A DNA stretch of 64,000 nt from Cryobacterium sp. (GTDB taxonomy: Bacteria > Actinomycetota > Actinomycetes > Actinomycetales > Microbacteriaceae): assembly GCF_025463825.1 (NCBI RefSeq), contig NZ_JAODBG010000119.1, forward strand, positions 1-64,000, read 5' to 3'. Shown here one piece after another: positions 37,351-58,487 of the stretch (positions within the stretch are counted from its first letter, which is position 1; every line of letters starts with the position of its first letter). A program made the position numbers and the translations under genes. The notes under the pieces were generated by a model. It worked only from the letters and a program-made list of their open reading frames with translations. It was not told where the DNA came from and ran no database searches.

Positions 37351-37590
37351 CTACCAGTGTGGGGGCTTGTCCTGACGGAGCCGGGCGTCGTTGGCGCTCG
37401 TGGCGGAGCCGTCGCCGGAAGTCTGGCCGCCCTCCTCGCGGGGCGCGGGTTCGGGGCTGGGGTCGGTGTCCGGGGCCGGGGTCAGGCGCGCTCGGCGGGC
37501 ACCGGCCGACCGCACGACACGCTGGCGCGGCTCGGCCGCCGACACGGTCTCGGCGGGCGTGGCCGGGTCAGCCGCGGCGGGGTCAGGCAC
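37351..37590 (-). CDS. small hypothetical protein, overlaps 3' end of upstream gene
   Basis: GTG at 37590: VPDPAAADPATPAETVSAAEPRQRVVRSAGARRARLTPAPDTDPSPEPAPREEGGQTSGDGSATSANDARLRQDKPPHW*; GTGCCTGA overlap with the upstream stop. Confidence 0.6.
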   Translation of the reverse strand: MPDPAAADPATPAETVSAAEPRQRVVRSAGARRARLTPAPDTDPSPEPAPREEGGQTSGDGSATSANDARLRQDKPPHW

Positions 37591-40500
37591 GGTGCGCCGG
37601 ACCGTTTGACCCCTCGGTCGGCGTGATCCCTGCGAGGGCGGCGACGCGGGCGGCCACCGCATCCGGATTGCTGAACAGTTCGAAGCTGTGCACCCGCAGG
37701 TAGTGCCAGCCGAGGCGCCGCAGCACCTCGGGGCGCAGCCGCAGGGACTCGCGCAGACTGGCCCGGTTGACCACGGCGTCGGTCTCCACGACCACGGCGC
37801 GGCCGGCGTGCGAGGCGGCCAGCGCGAGCTTCCCGCGGTGTCCGAGCGATACGGTGAGGCCCTTGCGTTCAAGGCGGCGGGCGAGGTCGACCAGCATGGC
37901 TTCGCGGGCATCCGGCACGGCAACCTCGTTGCGACGCGCCTCGGTCTCGGTCAGCACCTGCGAGAGGGCCAGGATGCCGTGCCGCTGCCGGTCGGCGTCG
38001 ATGTCGATGGGGCGGAAGCAGGAGACGATGTCCATGGCGCGGCGGGCGCGGGTCATGCCGATCGCGAGCAGGCGTTCACCGCCGGGTTCGCCGAGGGAAC
38101 CGAAGTTGCTCAGCAGCCGGCCGTGCGGGGTGCGGCCGTAGCCGATCGAGAAGATCACCCGGTCGCGGCTCTGCGCCACGGCCTGCTCGAGGGTGAGCAC
38201 CGTGAAGGGTTCGGCGCGGTCCTTGAGGATGAAGTCGCTCAGGTCGGTGCGCTTGGCGAACGCGGCGAGCACGGCCTGGTGCACGCGCACGGCGTGCCGG
38301 GCGCTGGCGGTGATCACCATCAGGGATTCCCGGGGGCGCTTGACGGCGTGGTCCATGACCAGGTCGACGACCTTCGACACCTCGGCGTCCACGCTCTCCA
38401 CAGCGCCACTGTCGGCGTCGGGCATTCCGTGCCCGCCGGCGACGTAGTTGAGGGTGAGGCTGCCGTGGCCGAGGAAGCTGCCCGCCCAGGGCAGCGAGTC
38501 GATCCGGCCGCCGTAGAAGCGGTGGTTGACCAGCTCGGCGAGGTCTTCGCCGCCGGCCCGGTAGCTGCGGGTGAGCGTGAGGGTCGGCAGCAGCTCGCCG
38601 AGGCGGGCCAGGGCGGAGTCGGCGTGCAGGGCGTCGACGTTGGTCTCCTGCGGCACGGGCACGTCGGCCGGTTCCAGGATGCCGGTCTCGAACGGTGACG
38701 GCGTCTGCGTGACCGGGTCACCGAACGCGACGACCTGCTTGCCGCGACGGATCGCGCCCACGTTCTCGGCGAGGGTGGTCGCGCCGGCGTCGACGAGCAG
38801 CACGGCGTCGAAGGTCATGGTGTCGTCGAGGGCGGCCACCTCGTAGGGCGAGGCGAGCCAGACGGGGGCGAGCACCCGGCCCAGGTGCGGCGAGACCTCG
38901 TTGATGCGCGAGGGCGTGGCGCGGTCGGCCCGGAGCAACCGGCGCAGCTGGTCGGCTTCTTCCGGCCAGTCGACGACGCCGATCTTCCAGGTCTCGGCGA
39001 GCAGCCAGGCCAGGATCTGGCCGGTGCTGGCGGCGTGGGCCTCATCGACGAGCTTGAAGTCGGCTTCGAGCCGGTCCAGCACCTGGGTGTTGGCGTTCAG
39101 CAGGGCCTTGTCGCCGCCCAGCATGACCTCCAGCACGGACTGCCACCAGGCCAGCTCGAGCTCCGCGGCGACATCCTGCTCCGACACGTGCCGCAGCGAC
39201 AGATCGGTCATCAGTGGGTCGAGGTTGTGTTCGCGCAGGGTCGCGAGCAGGGCGGTGCGCTCGTGCAGGTTGGCGAGCACCTCGCTGTCCGCTGCGAGGC
39301 CGGCGATGGTGCGCTGCAGGTCGCGGATCGGCTGCGAGATGAGCTGGCGGGGGGTGCCGGCGTTGCCCAGCGGACCGTCGAGCCTGCCGAGGTCTTCGGC
39401 GACCCGCTGGAACGCCACGTGCACGTCGTTGATGCCGACCGGGACCTCCGGGGTGACGCCGGCGGCGGCATACCGCTGCCACAGCGTGCGCTGCTGCTGG
39501 ATGCGCCGCAGGCTCTCGTTCATGTCGCTCACGTGCACCCCCGGCCGCAGGTACTCGTCGGCGAGGCGGCGCAACCGGCGCCGGTTCGACGAGGTCATCT
39601 CCGGGGCATCCCGGCGCGCCGAGGTGGCGGCGATCAGTTCGGTGAGCGACCTGTCGAACACCGAGGGCTGGAACTTGTCCAGGGTCTCGCGGATGTCCAG
39701 CAACAGGCGCAGGTAGATGCCGAGCTCGTGCACCGTCTCGAACGGGCGCAGCCGGGTCTGGCCGACCAGATTGGTTGCGCGGTCCAGCAGGCGCTGCAGC
39801 TCGGGCTGGTTGAGCCGTTTCGCGAGCTCGTGCGCGGCGCCGGCATCCGCGGTGGAGGAGAACGATGCCCCGTACCAGGGCGAGTCGCCCGGCCCGTAGC
39901 GGAACTGGCCCAGCACGGCGGCCTTGATCAGGATCGCGGCGGCGCTGGCCCGGTCGTGGGCGAGGCGCTCGAGCGCCACCCGGTCCAGCCGGGCGGTGGT
40001 CGACGGCGGCGACGGCAGCTGGGCGAGCCGGGCAAGTTCACCGAGGGCATCGAGCACCGACACGCCGAGCACGGCGTCCTTGCGGGTGAGTGCCGAACGG
40101 TAGTCCAGCAGCACCTTGCGCAGGCGCACGAGGGCGTCGTCGACGTCGCCGACCTTGGGCTGCACGCACTTCTCGTTGCGGGTGATCGACTGGATCAGGT
40201 CGCGGCGCAGAGTGCGCGGCGTCACGGCGACGCCGGGCAGGCCCACCTGCACGAGGCGGTGGGCGATGCCGTCGAGGCTGGAGCGGCGGGCACTGACCAC
40301 GAGCACCCGCTTGTGCTGGGCGATCAGCGAGCCGATGGCGTTCACGATGGTCTGGGTGCCGCCGGTGCCCGGCAGGGTCTTCACGACGAGGGAGTTGCCG
40401 GCGCTGATCTGCGCGACGACGTTCTCCTGCTCGGCGTCGGCATCCAGCAGCAGGGTGTCGGTGCCGGGCGGGCGCACGTCCTGGCCGACCGGCAGCACCG

Positions 40501-41338
40501 GGTGGTAGGCCATTTCGATGGCGCGGCGGGCCGTGGGGTTTCCGGCGACGGCGTCGAGCACGGAGTGGGTGAGCTTGTGCGCGTCGACGGCCATGGCCCG
40601 GCCGACGTCGGCGAAGGAGGACGCCACCAGGCGTGGGGAGACGTTGAACCAGGGCAGGTGCGAGGTCAGTCCGCGCAACCGGTCGATCACCGGTTGCGGC
40701 TTGAACGCGCCGTTGGTCACGGCGAGGGCCACGAACGCATCCGCGTCGAGGGTGATCGTGAACTGGTCGTGCAGGGCCCGGGCCAACTCGGGGTTGAGGA
40801 ACGGGGCGCCCTTGAGCTTGAGCTCGAAGTCCCGGCCGTACCGGCGGATGGCCAGGGGCCGCAGCAGCACCGGCGCGGTGTACTCGACGTCGCCGTGGCG
40901 CCACTGGGCCAGCCCGATGGCGAGGTGCACCGATTCGATGCCGCGCATCGAACGCAGTTCGATGCCCTTCTGGGTGATCTCGTTGGCGGCCAGGCGGGCG
41001 TTGCGCAACGCCAGCTCGTCCCGGATGAGGTTGGACAGCAGGGTGGTCTTGCCGGTGATGAACTGCGGCAGGCCACCGGGGTGGGTGGCGGAGAGTTCGA
41101 TGCGGGAGCGCGGGCTGTCGCCGAAGTGCAGCAGCGGCGAGTGGCCGCCGACGGCGGCCAGTTCGTCGCGCCAGCGCTGCCAGGTGGGTTCGGCGATGTT
41201 CCCGGCCACGAGGGCCGGGTCGCCCAGGCTCACCGAGTCCGGGGAGGTCGCAGATCGCGAATCGGCTGACGGCACGTCGGTGTACTCCGACGTGAAATCG
41301 TCATCTTCTGGTTTTCTATCGAGGCGCCACACACCCAC
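37583..41338 (-). CDS. SF1 helicase-like protein with degenerate ATPase motifs and C-terminal restriction-endonuclease-like domain
   Basis: LVVKTLPGTGGTQTIVNAIGSLIAQHKRVLVVSAR, VLLVDAGATTL, VVAFGDPVTQTPS, ERLLAIGMTRARRAMDIV; C-terminal AVVVETDAVVNRASLRESLRLRPEVLRRLGWHYLRVHSFELFSNP. Confidence 0.8.
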   Translation of the reverse strand: MGVWRLDRKPEDDDFTSEYTDVPSADSRSATSPDSVSLGDPALVAGNIAEPTWQRWRDELAAVGGHSPLLHFGDSPRSRIELSATHPGGLPQFITGKTTLLSNLIRDELALRNARLAANEITQKGIELRSMRGIESVHLAIGLAQWRHGDVEYTAPVLLRPLAIRRYGRDFELKLKGAPFLNPELARALHDQFTITLDADAFVALAVTNGAFKPQPVIDRLRGLTSHLPWFNVSPRLVASSFADVGRAMAVDAHKLTHSVLDAVAGNPTARRAIEMAYHPVLPVGQDVRPPGTDTLLLDADAEQENVVAQISAGNSLVVKTLPGTGGTQTIVNAIGSLIAQHKRVLVVSARRSSLDGIAHRLVQVGLPGVAVTPRTLRRDLIQSITRNEKCVQPKVGDVDDALVRLRKVLLDYRSALTRKDAVLGVSVLDALGELARLAQLPSPPSTTARLDRVALERLAHDRASAAAILIKAAVLGQFRYGPGDSPWYGASFSSTADAGAAHELAKRLNQPELQRLLDRATNLVGQTRLRPFETVHELGIYLRLLLDIRETLDKFQPSVFDRSLTELIAATSARRDAPEMTSSNRRRLRRLADEYLRPGVHVSDMNESLRRIQQQRTLWQRYAAAGVTPEVPVGINDVHVAFQRVAEDLGRLDGPLGNAGTPRQLISQPIRDLQRTIAGLAADSEVLANLHERTALLATLREHNLDPLMTDLSLRHVSEQDVAAELELAWWQSVLEVMLGGDKALLNANTQVLDRLEADFKLVDEAHAASTGQILAWLLAETWKIGVVDWPEEADQLRRLLRADRATPSRINEVSPHLGRVLAPVWLASPYEVAALDDTMTFDAVLLVDAGATTLAENVGAIRRGKQVVAFGDPVTQTPSPFETGILEPADVPVPQETNVDALHADSALARLGELLPTLTLTRSYRAGGEDLAELVNHRFYGGRIDSLPWAGSFLGHGSLTLNYVAGGHGMPDADSGAVESVDAEVSKVVDLVMDHAVKRPRESLMVITASARHAVRVHQAVLAAFAKRTDLSDFILKDRAEPFTVLTLEQAVAQSRDRVIFSIGYGRTPHGRLLSNFGSLGEPGGERLLAIGMTRARRAMDIVSCFRPIDIDADRQRHGILALSQVLTETEARRNEVAVPDAREAMLVDLARRLERKGLTVSLGHRGKLALAASHAGRAVVVETDAVVNRASLRESLRLRPEVLRRLGWHYLRVHSFELFSNPDAVAARVAALAGITPTEGSNGPAHRA

Positions 41339-42509: not shown

Positions 42510-43127
42510 TCAGGAACGCTGCGGTCCCTCGTGCTTGCGGTAGGTGGGGCTGAAGGCCAGCAGCACCAGGCCGACGCCGAGCACCGCCTGTCCGATCGCT
42601 GTGGAGGGCAGCACCGAGACGGCGCCGCCGAGCACGAGCAGCACGGCGGGGAGAACCCGGTAGACGCGGGCGCGCAGCATGGCGATGCCCAGCAGGATCC
42701 AGCCGACCCCGAACACCGCGGCGCTCAGCAGCAGGCCGAACGCGGACGAACCCGGCCGGACTGATCCGTCGAGCAGCTCCGGGGTCACCCGGCCCAGGGT
42801 GGGATAGAGGAACGCCTCCGCCCAGAACAGCCCGCTGATCAGGATGGTGCCGGTGCCGGCGACGATCGCGGCGGAGAACCCGAACGGGCCGATATTGCGG
42901 GCGTGGCGCTCGTAGATGGACACCAGCGCCAGGATGAGCAGCAGCGCCCCGCCGAGCAGGGCCACCGAGCGCACGGCGTAGAGCGGAGTCTGCACGATGC
43001 TGCTGGCCGGGTCCCCGGTGAGCCGCAGCACCTGGTCGAGCACGCCGCCGACGATGAACACCGTTCCGGCCGCGAGAGTCGCGGGCTTGGCCACGCCTTC
43101 GAACCTCTTCACCAGGACCTCGCTCAC
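42510..43127 (-). CDS. hypothetical membrane protein
   Basis: ~5 hydrophobic segments; likely GTG start at 43127 (VSEVLVKRFEGVAKPATLAAGTVFIVGGVLDQVLRL). Confidence 0.7.
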   Translation of the reverse strand: MSEVLVKRFEGVAKPATLAAGTVFIVGGVLDQVLRLTGDPASSIVQTPLYAVRSVALLGGALLLILALVSIYERHARNIGPFGFSAAIVAGTGTILISGLFWAEAFLYPTLGRVTPELLDGSVRPGSSAFGLLLSAAVFGVGWILLGIAMLRARVYRVLPAVLLVLGGAVSVLPSTAIGQAVLGVGLVLLAFSPTYRKHEGPQRS

Positions 43128-43227
43128 CGCGTAATAACATCGGCCCCCGGGGTCTGGGCCGATTGACTCGATTCTCGCACCCGTCGATGCCACCGACAAG
43201 AGCCGCCGTCGCCCAGTGCAGCCCGTC

Positions 43228-43387: not shown

Positions 43388-44161
43388 GTGCTCCCACTCC
43401 CCTCCGCCGGCCCGGATCGTGGTGGTCCGATCAGCGCCGACCCGATCAGCGCCGACCCGTTCAGCGCCGACGTGGCCGGCGTCACCCCGGCCGGGGTCGA
43501 CCTGGCCACCACCGTGGTGGTGCAGCTGGCCGACCAGGCGCCGACGAGGGCGGGCGACCACCAGAGGTTGGTGGCCCTGGTCGGCCGGGTGACCGGTGTT
43601 GATCCGGCGGCCGTCACGCTTGACCGGGTCTGCCCGAACTGTGGGGAGTCCGGCCACGGGCCGCTCCGGGTCGGGTTCAGCGCCGCGCCGGATGCCGCCC
43701 CTCCCGTGCACGTGAGCCTTGCCCGGGCGGGCGGGCGGCTCGCCCTCGCCGTGACCGCGGCCGGCACGGTGGGCATCGACCTGGAGTCCGTCGCCGAGCT
43801 GGGCCGGTCGCCGGTCGCCGACGTCGTGTTGTCCGGCGCCGAAGCGCGCGCTCTGGCCGACCTCGACCCGGGCGCCGCGGAGGTCACCGTTGCCGTCGTC
43901 TGGACCGCGAAGGAGGCGGTACTGAAGGCCGCCGGGGTCGGCCTGAGGGTCGATCCGCGCGACCTCACCGTCGCCCTGCCCGGGCCAGCCGGCGCCACCG
44001 CCGCCGGCTGGCCCGTCCTCGCCGACTGGCCGGCTGCGCCGTTCCCGCCAGGGCACGTGCACCTGCTGCCGCTGGCCGCAGCCGCCGGTCTCGTCGGTAC
44101 CGTCGCGGTGGTCCGCACCGACCGGCCCGCGCTGAGAATGCTACCCGCCCCGACCCGCTGA
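43388..44161 (+). CDS. 4'-phosphopantetheinyl transferase superfamily protein
   Basis: VGIDLESVAEL...AVVWTAKEAVLKAAGVGL (GxD and WxxKEAxxK motifs). Confidence 0.9.
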   Translation: MLPLPSAGPDRGGPISADPISADPFSADVAGVTPAGVDLATTVVVQLADQAPTRAGDHQRLVALVGRVTGVDPAAVTLDRVCPNCGESGHGPLRVGFSAAPDAAPPVHVSLARAGGRLALAVTAAGTVGIDLESVAELGRSPVADVVLSGAEARALADLDPGAAEVTVAVVWTAKEAVLKAAGVGLRVDPRDLTVALPGPAGATAAGWPVLADWPAAPFPPGHVHLLPLAAAAGLVGTVAVVRTDRPALRMLPAPTR

Positions 44162-44275
44162 CCGGCCGGAGCTGACGCCTCACAACCTCCCTCGCGACGT
44201 GCCGCAGGATGCCCCTTGGCGACCGGCGACGGGGCCGTTTGCCGCGACTCGGGGCGCGCGGGCCGGGGCGGGCGG

Positions 44276-45631
44276 TTAGTGCGCCGGCGCCGGCGGGTCG
44301 GGTTTGAGCTGCGGCAGGGCCTTGGCCGACACCCAGCGGGCCACGATCTTGTCGGCGACGGCGGTGCCGGCCGCTGCGCTGAAGCAGCCGAGCAGGTGCT
44401 CCGGCGTGACGTTGCCGTGCCGGTGGGTGCGGGCGTAGGCGCGCAGTGCCGTGAAGAACGCCTCGTCGCCGATGGCCTGGCGCACGGCGTGCAGGGCGAG
44501 CGCCCCGCGCTTGTACACCCGGTCGTCGAACATGTCCTGCGGGCCGGGGTCGCCCACGACGATGTTCTTGGGCAGGGCGTCCAGCTCGGCTCGGTGCAGC
44601 ACGGCGCTCGCGTGCGCGGTGATCCCGCCGCTGGCCTCCGCCCAGATCCATTCGGCGTAGCAGGCGAAGCCCTCGTGCAGCCAGATGTCGGCCCACCGGG
44701 TGAGGGTGAGGCTGTTGCCGAACCACTGGTGGGCCAGTTCGTGCGCGATCAGCCGGTCGCTTCCGTGCAGGCCGTCGACGTGGTTGCGGCCGAACACGCC
44801 GAGGCCGTGCGCTTCGAGTGGGATCTCCAGTTCGTCGTCGGTGACGACGACCGCGTACGCCGGGAACGGGTAGGGGCCGAAGGCCGCGCTGAACACGGCG
44901 ATCATCTCACCGAGCCGGGCGAAGTCCACGGCCACCTGGCGGGCCAGTGCGGGTGGGAAGAACAGGCTGTGCGCCACCGGTGCGGCGGCGATGTCGTGCC
45001 GGCGGTACCGGCCGATCTGCACGCTGGCCAGGTAGGGCGCCATCGGCTCCACGACGCCGAAGGTCCAGGTGGTGCGGCCGGAGCGGGTGCTCTTGGCCAG
45101 CACCGGCCCGTTGCTCACCACCGTGTACGGCGCCTCGCAGGTGAGCTGGATGCGGAAGGAGGCCTTGTCCCTGGGGTGGTCGTTGCACGGGAACCAGGAC
45201 GGCGCCCCGCTGGGCTGGCCGGCGACGAGCACGCCGTCGGTGAGCTCCTCCCAACCCACCTCGCCCCAGTGGCTGCGCACCGGATGCGGCGCCCCGCGGT
45301 ACCGCACCGTCACCTCGAACGGCTCCCCCGCGACCAGCGGTGTCGCCGGCGTGATCACGAGCTTCCGCGCCGAATGCACGATTTTCGCGGCCGGGGCACC
45401 GGCAACGGTGACCTTCTCGACGGTGAGGCCGGCCAGGTCCAGGCTGAACCGGTCCAGCCCGGTGAGGGCCCTGGCCCGGATCGTGGCCGTGGCGGTCAAC
45501 CGGTTGGTGGCGACGCGGTAGTCCAGGTTCAGGTCGTAGTGGTCGACCCGGTAGCCGCCGTTGCCGCTGGCGGGCAGGTATGCGTCACCCGCGGACGCGG
45601 ATCCGTGCACGGGGGGCGGAGTTTGCAACAT
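44276..45631 (-). CDS. M1 family metallopeptidase
   Basis: LIAHELAHQWFGNSLTLTRWADIWLHEGFACYAEWIW (HExxH-x18-E). Confidence 0.95.
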   Translation of the reverse strand: MLQTPPPVHGSASAGDAYLPASGNGGYRVDHYDLNLDYRVATNRLTATATIRARALTGLDRFSLDLAGLTVEKVTVAGAPAAKIVHSARKLVITPATPLVAGEPFEVTVRYRGAPHPVRSHWGEVGWEELTDGVLVAGQPSGAPSWFPCNDHPRDKASFRIQLTCEAPYTVVSNGPVLAKSTRSGRTTWTFGVVEPMAPYLASVQIGRYRRHDIAAAPVAHSLFFPPALARQVAVDFARLGEMIAVFSAAFGPYPFPAYAVVVTDDELEIPLEAHGLGVFGRNHVDGLHGSDRLIAHELAHQWFGNSLTLTRWADIWLHEGFACYAEWIWAEASGGITAHASAVLHRAELDALPKNIVVGDPGPQDMFDDRVYKRGALALHAVRQAIGDEAFFTALRAYARTHRHGNVTPEHLLGCFSAAAGTAVADKIVARWVSAKALPQLKPDPPAPAH

Positions 45632-45637
45632 AGAAGG

Positions 45638-48600
45638 TCAAGTCTTCCACGGCGGCCGGTGCCACGGCGCAATCGGGTTGCCGGACCAGAGGGAGTCGGT
45701 GGGCACCCGCTCGCCCCGCATCACCAGCGACCCCGGCCCGACGGTGGCGTTGTCGTCGATCCGGGCCGCGGGCAGGATCACGCTGTTGGGCCCGAGGGTG
45801 CCGCCGGTGCCGATCGACACGGTGTCCAACTGCATGATCCGGTCGTGGAACAGGTGCGTCTGCACGACGCAGCCGCGGTTGACGCTACTGCCGGCGGCGA
45901 GGTGCACCAGGTCGGCTTCCGGCAGCCAGTACGACTCGCACCACACGCCCCGCCCGATGGTGGCGCCCAGCGACCGCAGCCACAGCGCCAGCGCCGGGGT
46001 GCCCGACGCGTTCTGCGCGAACCACGGCCGGGCGACCATCTCCACGAAGGTGTCCGACACCTCGTTCCGCCAGATGAACGACGACCAGAGCGGATGCTCC
46101 GACACCCGGATGCGCCCCACCAGCAGCCACTTGGCGGCGCTGGTCAGCGCCGCCGCGACCACCCCGGCGGCCAGCAGCACGAACGGGGACAGGAGCAGTG
46201 CCACCCCGGGCCCGGCCGCCAGCCACAGGGCATCGAGCCCGGCGAGCACGCCAAGGCCGATCCACGCGGAGACGAAGACGGGCACCAGGCGGAGCACCTC
46301 CCACAGCGACCGGGCCAGGATCAGCCGGGCCGGCGGGTGGAAGGTGCGGGCCTCGTCGATGTCGGTCACCCGGCGGCGGAGGCGGGTGGGCGGGTTGCCC
46401 AGCCAGGAGGAACCGCGCTTGGCCTTCCGCGGGGTGGACGACAGCACGGCCACGAGGCCGTCCCGCGGCACGGTGCGGCCGGGCCCGGCGATGCCGCTGT
46501 TGCCCAGGAAAGCCCGCCGGCCGATCTTGGCGCGGCCGATGCGCATCCAGCCGCCGCCGAGTTCGTAGCAGGCGACCATGGTGTCGTCGGCGAGGAACGC
46601 GCCGGGCGCGATGGTGCTCAGCGACGGCACCAGCAGCACGGTGGACGCCTCGACGCCGGGGCCGACCTTCGCGCCGAGCAGCCGCAGCCACACCGGAGTG
46701 AGCAGGCTGGCGTAGACCGGGAACAGCAGGGTGCGGGCGCCGTCGAGCAGCCGTTCGGTCATCCAGACCTGCCAGCCCACCCGGCTGCGCACCGCGTGGT
46801 GTCCCTCGGTCAGGCCGAGGCCCAGCAGCCGCACCGCCCCGATGACGGCGCCGGCGTAGAGCAGGCCGGCGGCGAGAACGGCACCCGGCACGGCCAGGGC
46901 GGCCCGGCCGAACGCGCTGCCCAGGCTGCCGGCGTCACCGATGGCCAGGCCCACGATGAGCAGGCCGAGCAGCACGGCCGCGGCGGGGATGCCGGCCAGC
47001 GCGACCGAGCCGGCGCCGTAGGCGATGAGCCAGCGCCGGCGGGCGGGCGGGCGTTCGATTGGCCAGGCCCGGCGGGCTGAGCCGACCCGCACGGCGGGCG
47101 AGCCGGCCCAGCGTTCGCCGCGCGGCACCCGGCCGGATACGGCCGAACCCGGTTCGATCTCGGCGCCGTCGCCGATCTTCGCACCGCCCAGCATGGTGCT
47201 GCGGGAGCCGACCACGGCATCCGCGCCGATGCGCACCCGGCCGATGCGCAGGATGTCGCCGTCGAGCCAGTAGCCGGCCAGGTCCACCTCCGGTTCGATC
47301 GCCGCGCGCTCGCCGATGCTGAGCATCCCCGTGACCGGCGGCACCGAGTGCAGGTCGACGCCGGGTTCGATGCGGGCGCCGAGCATGCGGGCGTAGTAGC
47401 TGATCCACGGCGCCCCGGCGAGGCTGGCGGCGTCGACGAAGTGGGCGACCTGTTCGGCCAGCCACAGCCGCAGGTGCACCCTGCCGCCGCGGGGGTAGTT
47501 CCCCGGGGTGACGCCGCGCAGCAGCAGCCGGGCCACGCCGACGGAGATGGCGATCTTGCCCAGCGGGGTGACGAGCAGCACGAAGCCGGCCAGCACCCAC
47601 CACCACGAGATGGAGGGGGCGAAGGAGGCGCCGGCGGCGGCGAGCACATTGTTGGCCGCCATCAGGTACACCAGCCAGCGGGCGCCGATGAGCAGGTGCA
47701 GCGGCACGCCCAGCAGGCTCTGCAGCAGCCCGGTCTGCGCCGGGACCGGCAGCACCTGCCGGCTGCGGCGGGCCACCGGCGGCAGGCGGCTGTCGAGTTC
47801 GTCGGCCAGCGCGCCGATGCGGGGGTGGTCGTAGATGTCGCTGATGCGGGTGTCGGGAAAGCGCTCGCGGATGGCGGCGACGAACTGGGCCGCCGAAAGG
47901 GAACCGCCGCCGTAGGCGAAGAAGTCGCTGTCCGCGTCGGCGACGGGCACACCGAGGATCGCGGCCCAGTGCCCGGCGAGCCAGCCGGCGGTGCCGCGCA
48001 GCGCAGCCGTGCCGGTGGTGCTGCCGCCGGGCAGCGGCCAGGGCAGCGCGGCCCGGTCGACCTTGCCGGAGGTGCGGGTGGGGATGTTCTCGACGACGGT
48101 GAGCAGCGGTACCAGGGCGGCGGGCAGTGCGGTGCGCAGCGCGTCGGATGCGGCGGGCAGGTCGAACCCGCCTGGTTCGGTCGGTGCGGCGTCGGTGAGG
48201 GACAGGTAGCCGACCAGCACCTGGTTGCCGGCCGGGGTGGTCTGCACGACGGCGGCGGCGCCGGCCACGCCGGGCAGCGCCTGCAGGGCGGCGTCGATCT
48301 CGCCGAGCTCGATGCGCCGGCCGCCGAGCTTGATCTGGTCGTCGGCGCGGCCCACGAACACCAGGCCGGCCGGATCGAACCGCACGAGGTCGCCGCTGCG
48401 GTAGGCGCGCTGCCAGCCGAGGCCGGCGTGCGGGGCATACTTCACGGCATCCTGCGCCGGGTCGAGGTAACGGGCCAGGCCGACACCGCCGATGATCAGC
48501 TCGCCGGTCTCGCCGGCGCGCACCCGGTTGCCGGCCGGGTCGACCACGGCCAGGCTCCAGCCGTCCAGCGGCAGGCCGATACGCACCGGGTCGCTGCCGT

Positions 48601-49666
48601 CCAGCAGGGCGCCGCAGGCCACGACCGTGGCCTCGGTGGGGCCGTAGGTGTTCCACACTTCGCGGCCGCGGGCGCTGATGCGGGCGGCCAGCTCGGGCGG
48701 GCAGGCCTCGCCCCCGAAGATCACCAGGCGCACGTTCTCGAGGGCCTCCTCGGGCCAGAGCGCGGCGAGGGTGGGCACGGTGGAGACCACGGTGATGCCG
48801 TGCGCGATCAGCCACGGACCGAGGTCGGCGCCGCTGCGCACCAGGGTGCGTGGGGCGGGTACCAGGCAGGCCCCGTTCCGCCAGGCCAGCCACATCTCCT
48901 CGCAGGAGGCGTCGAACGCGACCGACAGCCCGGCCAGCACCCGGTCGCCGGGGCCGATGGGTTCGCGGGCGAGGAACAGGCCGGCCTCGGCGTCGACGAA
49001 CGCGGCCGCCGACCGTTGGGTGACGGCGACGCCCTTGGGCACGCCGGTGGAGCCGGAGGTGAAGATGATCCAGGCGTCGTCGTCGGGGGCGGGCATGGGT
49101 TCGCCCCAGTGCGCCAGCGACGGATCCTCCTCCGCGGTCAACGGCCGGTCGGTGAGCACACCGGCATCGAGGCCGTCGCGCACTGTGAAGACGCCGCCGG
49201 CGCCGATCACGCCCACCACTCGGGCCTCACCGAAGACCAGGCGGGCGCGTTCCTCGGGGTCGTCGGCGTCGACGGGCACGTAGGCGGCGCCGACGACGAG
49301 GGTGGCCAGGATCGACAGGTACAGCTCGCGGGTGCCCGACGGGATGCGGATGCCGACGGTGTCGCCGCGGCGCACACCGGCCCGGCTCAGCCGCACGGCC
49401 TGCTCGTTGACCAGCCGCACGACGCGCCGGTAGCTCAGGGCGCCGGTCGCGTCCTCGAGCGCGAGCGCTGTGGGGTGTTCCTCGGCCGTGGCCAGCAGGA
49501 TCTCCACCAGGGTGCGCTCCGGGTGCACCAGGTGGCCGGCATCCAGCACGCCCTGCTCGTGGGCGGGCGCCGACGGGGGCCCGCCGGCCGGGATGGTCGG
49601 CGGCACCGTGTCGGTGTCGGCGGACTCGGCGACGCGCTGGCCGGGCTCCGGGTGGATCTGGGTCAC
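45638..49666 (-). CDS. Pls/PosA family non-ribosomal peptide synthetase (A-T-TM with three left-handed beta-helix-type repeats)
   Basis: WIIFTSGSTGVPKGVAVTQ, NTYGPTEATVVA, PTRTSGKVDRAALP, carrier DFFAYGGGSLSAAQFV; several TM segments; three hexapeptide-repeat segments (LGARIEPGVDLHSVPP / LGAKVGPGVEASTVLL / LGATIGRGVWCESYWL). Confidence 0.9.
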   Translation of the reverse strand: MTQIHPEPGQRVAESADTDTVPPTIPAGGPPSAPAHEQGVLDAGHLVHPERTLVEILLATAEEHPTALALEDATGALSYRRVVRLVNEQAVRLSRAGVRRGDTVGIRIPSGTRELYLSILATLVVGAAYVPVDADDPEERARLVFGEARVVGVIGAGGVFTVRDGLDAGVLTDRPLTAEEDPSLAHWGEPMPAPDDDAWIIFTSGSTGVPKGVAVTQRSAAAFVDAEAGLFLAREPIGPGDRVLAGLSVAFDASCEEMWLAWRNGACLVPAPRTLVRSGADLGPWLIAHGITVVSTVPTLAALWPEEALENVRLVIFGGEACPPELAARISARGREVWNTYGPTEATVVACGALLDGSDPVRIGLPLDGWSLAVVDPAGNRVRAGETGELIIGGVGLARYLDPAQDAVKYAPHAGLGWQRAYRSGDLVRFDPAGLVFVGRADDQIKLGGRRIELGEIDAALQALPGVAGAAAVVQTTPAGNQVLVGYLSLTDAAPTEPGGFDLPAASDALRTALPAALVPLLTVVENIPTRTSGKVDRAALPWPLPGGSTTGTAALRGTAGWLAGHWAAILGVPVADADSDFFAYGGGSLSAAQFVAAIRERFPDTRISDIYDHPRIGALADELDSRLPPVARRSRQVLPVPAQTGLLQSLLGVPLHLLIGARWLVYLMAANNVLAAAGASFAPSISWWWVLAGFVLLVTPLGKIAISVGVARLLLRGVTPGNYPRGGRVHLRLWLAEQVAHFVDAASLAGAPWISYYARMLGARIEPGVDLHSVPPVTGMLSIGERAAIEPEVDLAGYWLDGDILRIGRVRIGADAVVGSRSTMLGGAKIGDGAEIEPGSAVSGRVPRGERWAGSPAVRVGSARRAWPIERPPARRRWLIAYGAGSVALAGIPAAAVLLGLLIVGLAIGDAGSLGSAFGRAALAVPGAVLAAGLLYAGAVIGAVRLLGLGLTEGHHAVRSRVGWQVWMTERLLDGARTLLFPVYASLLTPVWLRLLGAKVGPGVEASTVLLVPSLSTIAPGAFLADDTMVACYELGGGWMRIGRAKIGRRAFLGNSGIAGPGRTVPRDGLVAVLSSTPRKAKRGSSWLGNPPTRLRRRVTDIDEARTFHPPARLILARSLWEVLRLVPVFVSAWIGLGVLAGLDALWLAAGPGVALLLSPFVLLAAGVVAAALTSAAKWLLVGRIRVSEHPLWSSFIWRNEVSDTFVEMVARPWFAQNASGTPALALWLRSLGATIGRGVWCESYWLPEADLVHLAAGSSVNRGCVVQTHLFHDRIMQLDTVSIGTGGTLGPNSVILPAARIDDNATVGPGSLVMRGERVPTDSLWSGNPIAPWHRPPWKT

Positions 49667-55788: not shown

Positions 55789-57659
55789 ATGACTCCCAGC
55801 GATGCGGTCGACGCGGTCAGCCGGCTCAAGGCGAAAGCGGATGCGGCCAAGGCCGCCGCGCTTCGTGCCCAGGCCGACGCTGAGGAGGCAGAAACCCCGC
55901 TGCGCCAGGCGGAGGAGGATGCACGCGCCGCATCCGCCGACACCCCTAGCCTCGAGCCGGTCCCGTCGGCCGGGTCGGCCCGCGCCGAACCCACCGGGAC
56001 GCCCGCCGCCGGGCCCCTCGACGACACACAGGTGGAGGCGATCCGGTCCGGCTACGCCTTCGACGGGCCGGCACTCGAGCTCGGCGCCCTCGTCAACGGC
56101 GCCGCCCGCCCCGACGTGCAGATCCGCATCCCGCTGGCCATGACCAACCGGCACGGGCTCGTCGCCGGCGCGACCGGCACCGGCAAGACCCGGACGCTCC
56201 AGCTGCTCGCCGAGCAGCTGTCGGCGCACGGGGTGCCGGTGTTCGCCGCCGACATCAAGGGCGACCTCTCCGGCATCGCCAGCGCCGGTACGTCCACCGA
56301 GAAACTGCTCGCCCGCACCTCCGCCCTCGGCCAGGACTGGGTCGGTACCGCCTCGCCCACGGAGTTCTTCTGCCTCGGCCGCATCGGCCACGGCGTCCCG
56401 ATCCGGGCCACCGTCGCCGGGTTCGGCCCGTTGCTGCTGAGCAAGGTCCTCGGCCTCAACGACACCCAGGAGTCCAGTCTGGGCCTGGTCTTCCACTACG
56501 CCGACGAGGCCTGGCAGCCGCTGCTGGACCTCACCGACCTGCGCGCCGTGCTCGGCTTCCTGATCAGCGACGACGGCAAGGGCGGGCTCACCGGCCTCGG
56601 CGGGCTCTCCAGCGCCACCGTCGGCGTCATCCTGCGCGAACTGATCACCTTCGCGGACCAGGGCGCCGACGTCTTCTTCGGTGAACCCGAGATCGACACC
56701 ACGGAATTCCTCGCCGTCACCGCCGACGGCCGCGGCCTGGTCAGCCTGCTCGAAGTGCCCGGGGTACAGGAGAGGCCGGCGCTGTATTCGACGTTCCTGA
56801 TGTGGCTGCTCGCCGACCTGTTCAACGACCTGCCCGAGGTGGGCGACCTGGACAAGCCCAAGCTGGTGTTGTTCTTCGACGAGGCGCACCTGTTGTTCCG
56901 GGACGCGTCCAAGGACTTCCTGGCCGCGATCACCCAGACCGTGCGGCTCATCCGCTCGAAGGGGGTCGGCATCTTCTTTGTCACCCAGACCCCGAAGGAC
57001 GTGCCCGGCGACGTGCTCGCCCAGTTGGGCTCGCGGGTGCAACACCAGCTGCGGGCGTTCACGCCGGATGACGCCAAGGCGCTCCGGGCGACGGTGTCGA
57101 CCTTTCCGCACTCCGGCTATGAACTCGATGAGGTACTCACCGGGCTCGGCATCGGTGAGGCCGTGGTCACGGTGATGAATGAGAAGGGCGCGCCCAGCCC
57201 GGTCGCCTGGACCCGGCTGCGGGCGCCGCGGGGGTCGATGGCGCCCACCCCCGCGGAACAGATCGAGGCCACCATCGCCGCGTCCCCGCTGCTGGCCCGC
57301 TACGGCGAGCCGGTCGACCGGGATTCCGCCCGGGAGATGCTGGCGGCCCGTCTGAAAGCGCGACCCGGGCTGCCGAAGCCGAGCAGCGGGCGATCGACCA
57401 GGCCAAGGCCGACGCCGAGCTCGCCAACCGGCAGGCGGCCGCGGATGCGCAACAGGCCAAGGCCCAGAAGAAGGCCGACGCCGACTATGAGCGGCTCCGG
57501 CGCCAGGCCGACACCGCCTCCCGCACCCGCACGCGCCCGCACCCGCGCGCCAAGCCGGAAAAGTCGGTGCTCGAGGAGGTGCTCGGCTCCCCCGCCACGA
57601 AGACCATCCTCACCGGCATCGTCACGGGCATCTTCGGTACCCGCCGCCGGCGCCGCTGA
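55789..57659 (+). pseudogene. HerA-like/DUF853 ATPase with apparent -1 frameshift near 57345-57375
   Basis: LVAGATGTGKTRTLQLLAEQLSAHGVPVFAADIKGDLSGIA; after ~57360 the plausible C-terminus (EAEQRAIDQAKADAELANRQAAADAQQ...SVLEEVLGSPATKTILTGIVTGIFGTRRRRR*) continues in another frame to TGA at 57657-57659. Confidence 0.8.
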
Positions 57660-58487
57660 GCGCCGCGGCACCTGGGTCGGCCGGCCCGTCACCGTCTGCT
57701 GGACGGCCTCCTCCTCACCAGCGCCCATGTGGTTGCCGGCGCCGACATCGTCAACGTCGGATTCGCCGACGGCACCAGCACCCGCGCCGACGTGGCCGGT
57801 CGCGACCCGCTCTCGGACCTGGCGGTGTTGCACGCCCGCGGTGCCACGCCGCATCCGGTGGAGCTCGGCGACGCAGCGCACCTGCGGGTCGGCCAGGTGG
57901 TGGTGGCGCTGGGCAACCCGCTCGGGCTGGCCGGCAGCGTCACCGCCGGCATCGCGTCGGCGCTCGCCCGGTCGCTGCCCACCCGGTCCGGGCGGGTGAT
58001 CGACGAGGTCATCCAGACCGACGCCGCCCTCAACCCGGGCAACAGCGGTGGCGTGCTCGCGGACAGCTCCGGGCGGATGGTCGGCGTCAACACCGCCCTG
58101 GCCGGGATCGGGGTGGGCATGGCGGTGCCGATCAACGCCACCACTCGGGAGATCATCACCGCGCTGATGACTCGGGGGCGGATGCGCCGCGCCTGGCTGG
58201 GCATCGCCGGCGCCCAGGTGCCGCTGGCGCCCGCCCTCGCCACCCGGATCGGCTCCCCCACCGGCCTGCAGGTCGCCGCCGTGGCGCCGGGCAGCCCGGC
58301 GGCCGAGGCGGGGCTGCTGCGCGGCGACATCGTGGTGGCACTCGCCGGCCAGCCGGTGGTCACGGCCACCGCGGTGCAGAAGCTGATGGTGGAGACCGCC
58401 ATCGACAAGCCCATCGAGATCACCGTGTGGCGAAACGGCGCCCTGGTCGACGCCATCACGGTGCCGCGGGAGCTCCAGGAGCCCTGA
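57660..58487 (+). pseudogene. HtrA/S1C-like serine protease with PDZ domain, N-terminus missing
   Basis: Same frame directly after the DUF853 stop: LLDGLLLTSAHVVAGADIVNVGF...DPLSDLAVLHA...NPGNSGGVLADSSGRMVGVNTA; first ATG/GTG/TTG in frame (GTG 57729) lies after the catalytic His. Confidence 0.7.

Follow-up and report, generated by a model that had tools for sequence, protein, structure and literature searches.

The Cryobacterium sp. DNA analyzed here, a stretch of 64,000 nucleotides referred to as the window, carries a locus that very probably makes and breaks down epsilon-poly-L-lysine (epsilon-PL), with a synthetase of the Pls/PosA family and a PldII-type M1 peptidase that would serve in self-protection or length control. 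Epsilon-PL, a chain of about 25–35 residues, is the defining product of Pls. The original prediction, a system that synthesizes and trims or degrades a cationic or other homo-poly amino acid, is supported, and the match of the substrate code narrows the predicted product to epsilon-PL. The pairing of pls with a peptidase gene for synthesis and degradation of epsilon-PL is already published, and the window holds a further member of this family. It is not a new kind of locus, because the pls-pldII operon of Streptomyces albulus, the product of Corynebacterium variabile Pls and Pls homologs of Micrococcales have all been published. The addition to known biology is modest and consists of a gene for a 4'-phosphopantetheinyl transferase (PPTase) that recurs as a neighbor in Micrococcales, and of its statistical link to Pls. 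In the open-licence literature searched, no relevant paper on polylysine in Cryobacterium and no description of a Pls-linked PPTase was found.

Organization of the locus

The draft genome amounts to 3.53 Mb in 147 contigs, with a completeness of 96%, and the window belongs to its contig 86. The nearest relative judged by Pls is Cryobacterium sp. 1639 (88% Pls identity). An ORF check reproduced the coordinates and strands originally given for synthetase, M1 peptidase and PPTase (Table 1), including the six bases between the synthetase gene and a same-strand HExxH peptidase gene, the motif of which is intact, and the convergent PPTase gene, recognized by a Pfam ACPS match and by its motifs. Profile matches for all three proteins were well beyond chance. 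The short gap is consistent with a single transcript and coupled translation. The real start codon of the PPTase gene may lie slightly downstream of the annotated position 43388.

Table 1. Position and predicted identity of the features of the locus in the window.
Feature	Position	Strand	Remarks
pls, Pls/PosA-family epsilon-poly-L-lysine synthetase (predicted)	45638-49666	-	1342 aa; A domain to ~residue 541, carrier 562-623, TM1-6 + C1-C3 648-1332
pldII-like two-domain M1 zinc aminopeptidase	44276-45631	-	451 aa; HExxHx18E intact; signal peptide not evident
Sfp-type 4'-phosphopantetheinyl transferase	43388-44161	+	257 aa; convergent; presumed activator of Pls carrier
pls stop/M1 start intergenic gap	45632-45637	-	6 bp

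Genes for an EamA transporter, a MocR regulator, CorA and a 229-aa protein were considered as parts of a wider conserved cluster and rejected; they are placed outside the unit because among 80 loci they are kept in Cryobacterium sp. 1639 (L005) only. The 229-aa protein (42510-43199, minus strand), which adjoins the PPTase and among the 80 loci shares this restriction, is hydrophobic-looking and has no Pfam or NCBIfam match. Elsewhere in the window, a 1251-aa protein (37583-41338, minus strand) matches an MTES_1575 endonuclease domain and DUF4011 only weakly, below cutoff in both cases. For a HerA-like ATPase (55789-57999, plus strand) the HerA_C match stops at protein residue 527, profile position 428 of 502, while the frame continues to 736 aa, and a frameshift near the end is therefore possible.

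The synthetase

By sequence, the synthetase is a full-length member of the Pls/PosA family. Pfam domains were found at residues 60–399 (AMP-binding), 562–623 (PP-binding) and 811–844 (Hexapep), and TIGR02353 (NRPS_term_dom) matches residues 648–1332; its score of 707 bits exceeds the curated cutoff of 423. Judged by hydropathy, the C-terminal half has six TM-like segments (651–669, 681–700, 880–900, 918–936, 1123–1150, and 1151–1183), and an AlphaFold model of residues 640–1342 (pLDDT 84, pTM 0.86) contains three repeats of a TM hairpin with a left-handed beta-helix. When this model was compared with the PDB by Foldseek, the matches were partial, of modest TM-score and nearly all to hexapeptide acyltransferases, e.g., CysE. 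The order of domains is that of the Pls family: behind A-T come six TM segments and three beta-helix domains in tandem, and there is no C or TE domain. The published description of Pls lists A, T, and three C domains in tandem, together with six TM segments (PMC8117764). The A-T-TM-C1-C2-C3 arrangement anticipated in the original prediction is borne out by Pfam, TIGR02353, the six TM segments and the three beta-helix units, and the domain search that it proposed returned Pls-type C-terminal domains. The carrier serine, Ser589, is kept in 136/136 aligned proteins.

Among solved structures, the A domain of epsilon-poly-L-lysine synthase (PDB 7wew) is the best match, at E=6e-185. Over 503 aligned residues the window A domain is 64% identical to this S. 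albulus Pls, and the ten-residue code DAESIGTVVK is the same in both. Position 2 of the code tracks chain length, with Phe for Dap/Dab, Met for Orn and Ala for Lys (PosA study, PMC10522769). In the window Pls it is Ala, the lysine-linked residue.

The M1 peptidase

The peptidase consists of Peptidase_M1_N and Peptidase_M1 domains and is without the C-terminal part of PepN. Its model (pLDDT 88.7) has as closest solved fold the two-domain M1 peptidase of Deinococcus radiodurans (PDB 6a8z, 6ifg; 32% identity, Foldseek TM 0.83–0.89), a likeness of fold only, by which no link to Pls or activity on epsilon-PL is implied. The zinc motif found in the window protein is also intact in 131/131 aligned Pls-linked M1 proteins, and Glu273 and Tyr373, which we take to be the amine-binding Glu and the catalytic Tyr of M1 enzymes, are invariant in the same alignment. 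Gene position, size and family suggest orthology to PldII. Neither a signal peptide nor a TM segment is evident in the window protein, a counter-point to a PldII-like role, as S. albulus PldII is reported to be located at the cell surface (PMC9205021); Streptomyces-like homologs, however, likewise show none. The same genome has a second M1-family gene (G000:C65:7222-8571, contig 65), the product of which is 38% identical to the Pls-linked M1.

Linkage of pls and the peptidase gene

Loci were picked by Pls alone. For all 80 of the closest Pls relatives an M1 homolog was found downstream, encoded on the same strand, mostly directly after pls and with a larger gap in four (L033, L036, L042, and L051). 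A class-wide sample of 247 genomes, spread evenly, contained 60 with the Pls family; 55 family genes have an A domain, 50 of these with the lysine code. M1 was present in the stretch read for 47/50 lysine-code genes and for 0/17 family genes without A domain. It was not found in the stretch read near L145, L163, and L180, the second of which is close to a contig end, and no annotated M1 is located beside one R. opacus plasmid Pls; the link is therefore strong, not absolute. A Kitasatospora plasmid record has the same annotated pls-peptidase pair. Among 120 Microbacteriaceae genomes Pls was found in 47; the same 47, and none of the other 73, had an M1 match of more than 370 bits, located beside Pls (Fisher p=2e-34, shared ancestry ignored); two further genomes of the family had weak M1 matches only (<195 bits). 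The synteny check suggested with the original prediction hence gave conserved linkage at each of these three scales.

Five family genes of the class-wide sample carry DFE-type codes, and for four of them an M1 gene lies at a distance of about 900 bases. In these relatives (L185–L188) the code is DFEYIGTVTK or DFEYLGTVTK, and the M1 sequences that were read (L185, L187) have a signal-peptide-like N-terminus, unlike the lysine-type partners. At L184 a DFECLSAVTK synthetase precedes an apparent aminotransferase and a protein start that looks like aspartate kinase (MALIVRKYGGSSV), which resembles the dat/ask context of poly-diaminobutyrate clusters. In one Microbacteriaceae genome (G322:C1:2188642-2190701) the Pls terminal domain is in two frames beside an M1 without internal stops, a case of frameshift, sequencing error or decay.

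The PPTase neighbor

The PPTase is intact and has a Pfam ACPS domain with GIDLE at 129 and WTAKEAVLK at 172, i.e., the GxDxE and KEA motifs. Besides it the genome has one other PF01648 gene, AcpS by sequence, and carrier domains occur in Pls and in one 154-aa frame only, the latter presumed to be AcpP. As the genome otherwise holds only AcpS, the window PPTase is by elimination the probable activator of the Pls carrier. A PPTase gene is present in 36/80 of the closest loci, in Micrococcales genera, convergent to Pls in 35 and mostly just past M1. None was found near Pls in the sampled Nocardia, Rhodococcus, Mycobacterium, and Streptomyces-like loci. At least two PF01648 (ACPS-family) genes are present in 35/47 Pls-positive vs. 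8/73 Pls-negative Microbacteriaceae genomes (p=1e-12), and 12/47 Pls-positive genomes have a single ACPS-family match.

Discussion

The PPTase would place a phosphopantetheine arm on Ser589 of Pls, and the A domain, with a pocket that is the same as in the characterized enzyme, is predicted to activate L-lysine with ATP and to load the arm. By homology to PldII, the neighboring M1, probably made from the same transcript, would hydrolyze epsilon-PL and so protect the producer and/or set the chain length. It is conceivable on chemical grounds that the M1 active site could in principle also cut internal bonds, as each epsilon-PL residue keeps a free alpha-amino group beside the scissile carbonyl, and this would accord with the endo-type action that PldII is reported to have. 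In S. albulus PldII degrades epsilon-PL, and its repression leads to lower tolerance and longer product (PMC9223678). The role of PldII in chain length is disputed, as chain-length diversity has been credited to the synthetase instead (review, PMC9205021). The locus could also be silent, since C. variabile, with the same genes, gave no detectable epsilon-PL in culture (PMC8117764).

The pls-pldII operon of S. albulus resembles the window in synthetase architecture, A-domain code, gene order, common strand and near-zero spacing. It differs in that the A domains are only 64% identical, that pldII overlaps pls by 4 bp within one operon (PMC4361855) where the window has a 6-bp gap, and that a PPTase neighbor is not reported for S. 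albulus in the literature searched. The C. variabile operon also combines an actinobacterial Pls with a peptidase, in a different bacterial family, and a PPTase neighbor is not mentioned for it in the text consulted (PMC8117764). According to the same source, expression of this Pls in S. coelicolor yields epsilon-PL, the protein is expressed without product in C. glutamicum, and homologs occur in Arthrobacter, Microbacterium, and Brevibacterium. PosA, the delta-poly-L-ornithine synthetase of Acinetobacter baumannii, has the family and layout of the window Pls, but its code is DMEHNGTVSK, its substrate ornithine and its operon a single gene without peptidase (PMC10522769).

A different substrate for the synthetase has to be considered, as the Pls/PosA family includes enzymes for other diamino acids (PMC10522769) and as the five sampled class members with DFE-type codes include one with an apparent dat/ask pair next to it, an arrangement like that of poly-Dab clusters. 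The lysine enzyme nevertheless has the same code as the window Pls, Ala at position 2 included, and L184 and L185, the DFE-type proteins used for comparison, share only ~33–34% identity with the window Pls, which makes polymerization of ornithine, diaminobutyrate, diaminopropionate or beta-lysine very improbable. That the peptidase is a general housekeeping aminopeptidase adjoining pls by chance could be argued from the commonness of M1 aminopeptidases and from the second M1 on contig 65, yet a close M1 homolog adjoins Pls in all 47 Pls-positive Microbacteriaceae genomes and is found in none of the 73 Pls-negative ones, and such a coincidence is hardly credible.

For the PPTase, an association by chance, not dedicated to Pls, is unlikely, if less decidedly so. 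It would agree with the lack of PPTase genes near Pls in the sampled Rhodococcus, Nocardia, Mycobacterium, and Streptomyces-like loci and with the Pls-positive Microbacteriaceae that have one ACPS-family match only. Against it stand the inventory of the genome itself, with AcpS as the sole other enzyme of this kind and two carrier domains in all, the excess of second ACPS-family genes among Pls-positive genomes, and the recurrent, nearly always convergent position in the closest relatives. It is tempting to speculate that the epsilon-PL module of Micrococcales is a three-gene unit with a dedicated Sfp-type PPTase, which could function on its own and be transferred into genomes with nothing but AcpS and AcpP, and that in the DFE-code subgroup (L185–L188) a predicted secreted M1 does the equivalent for another polymer; this proposal could equally prove right or wrong.

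The PPTase link suggests a gene to co-express when the pathway is rebuilt in other hosts, and a lacking activator is one possible reason why C. variabile Pls yielded nothing in C. glutamicum. Epsilon-PL is an antimicrobial polymer that serves in food preservation, and the predicted capacity to make it now includes a Cryobacterium-like organism and ~40% of the Microbacteriaceae sampled.
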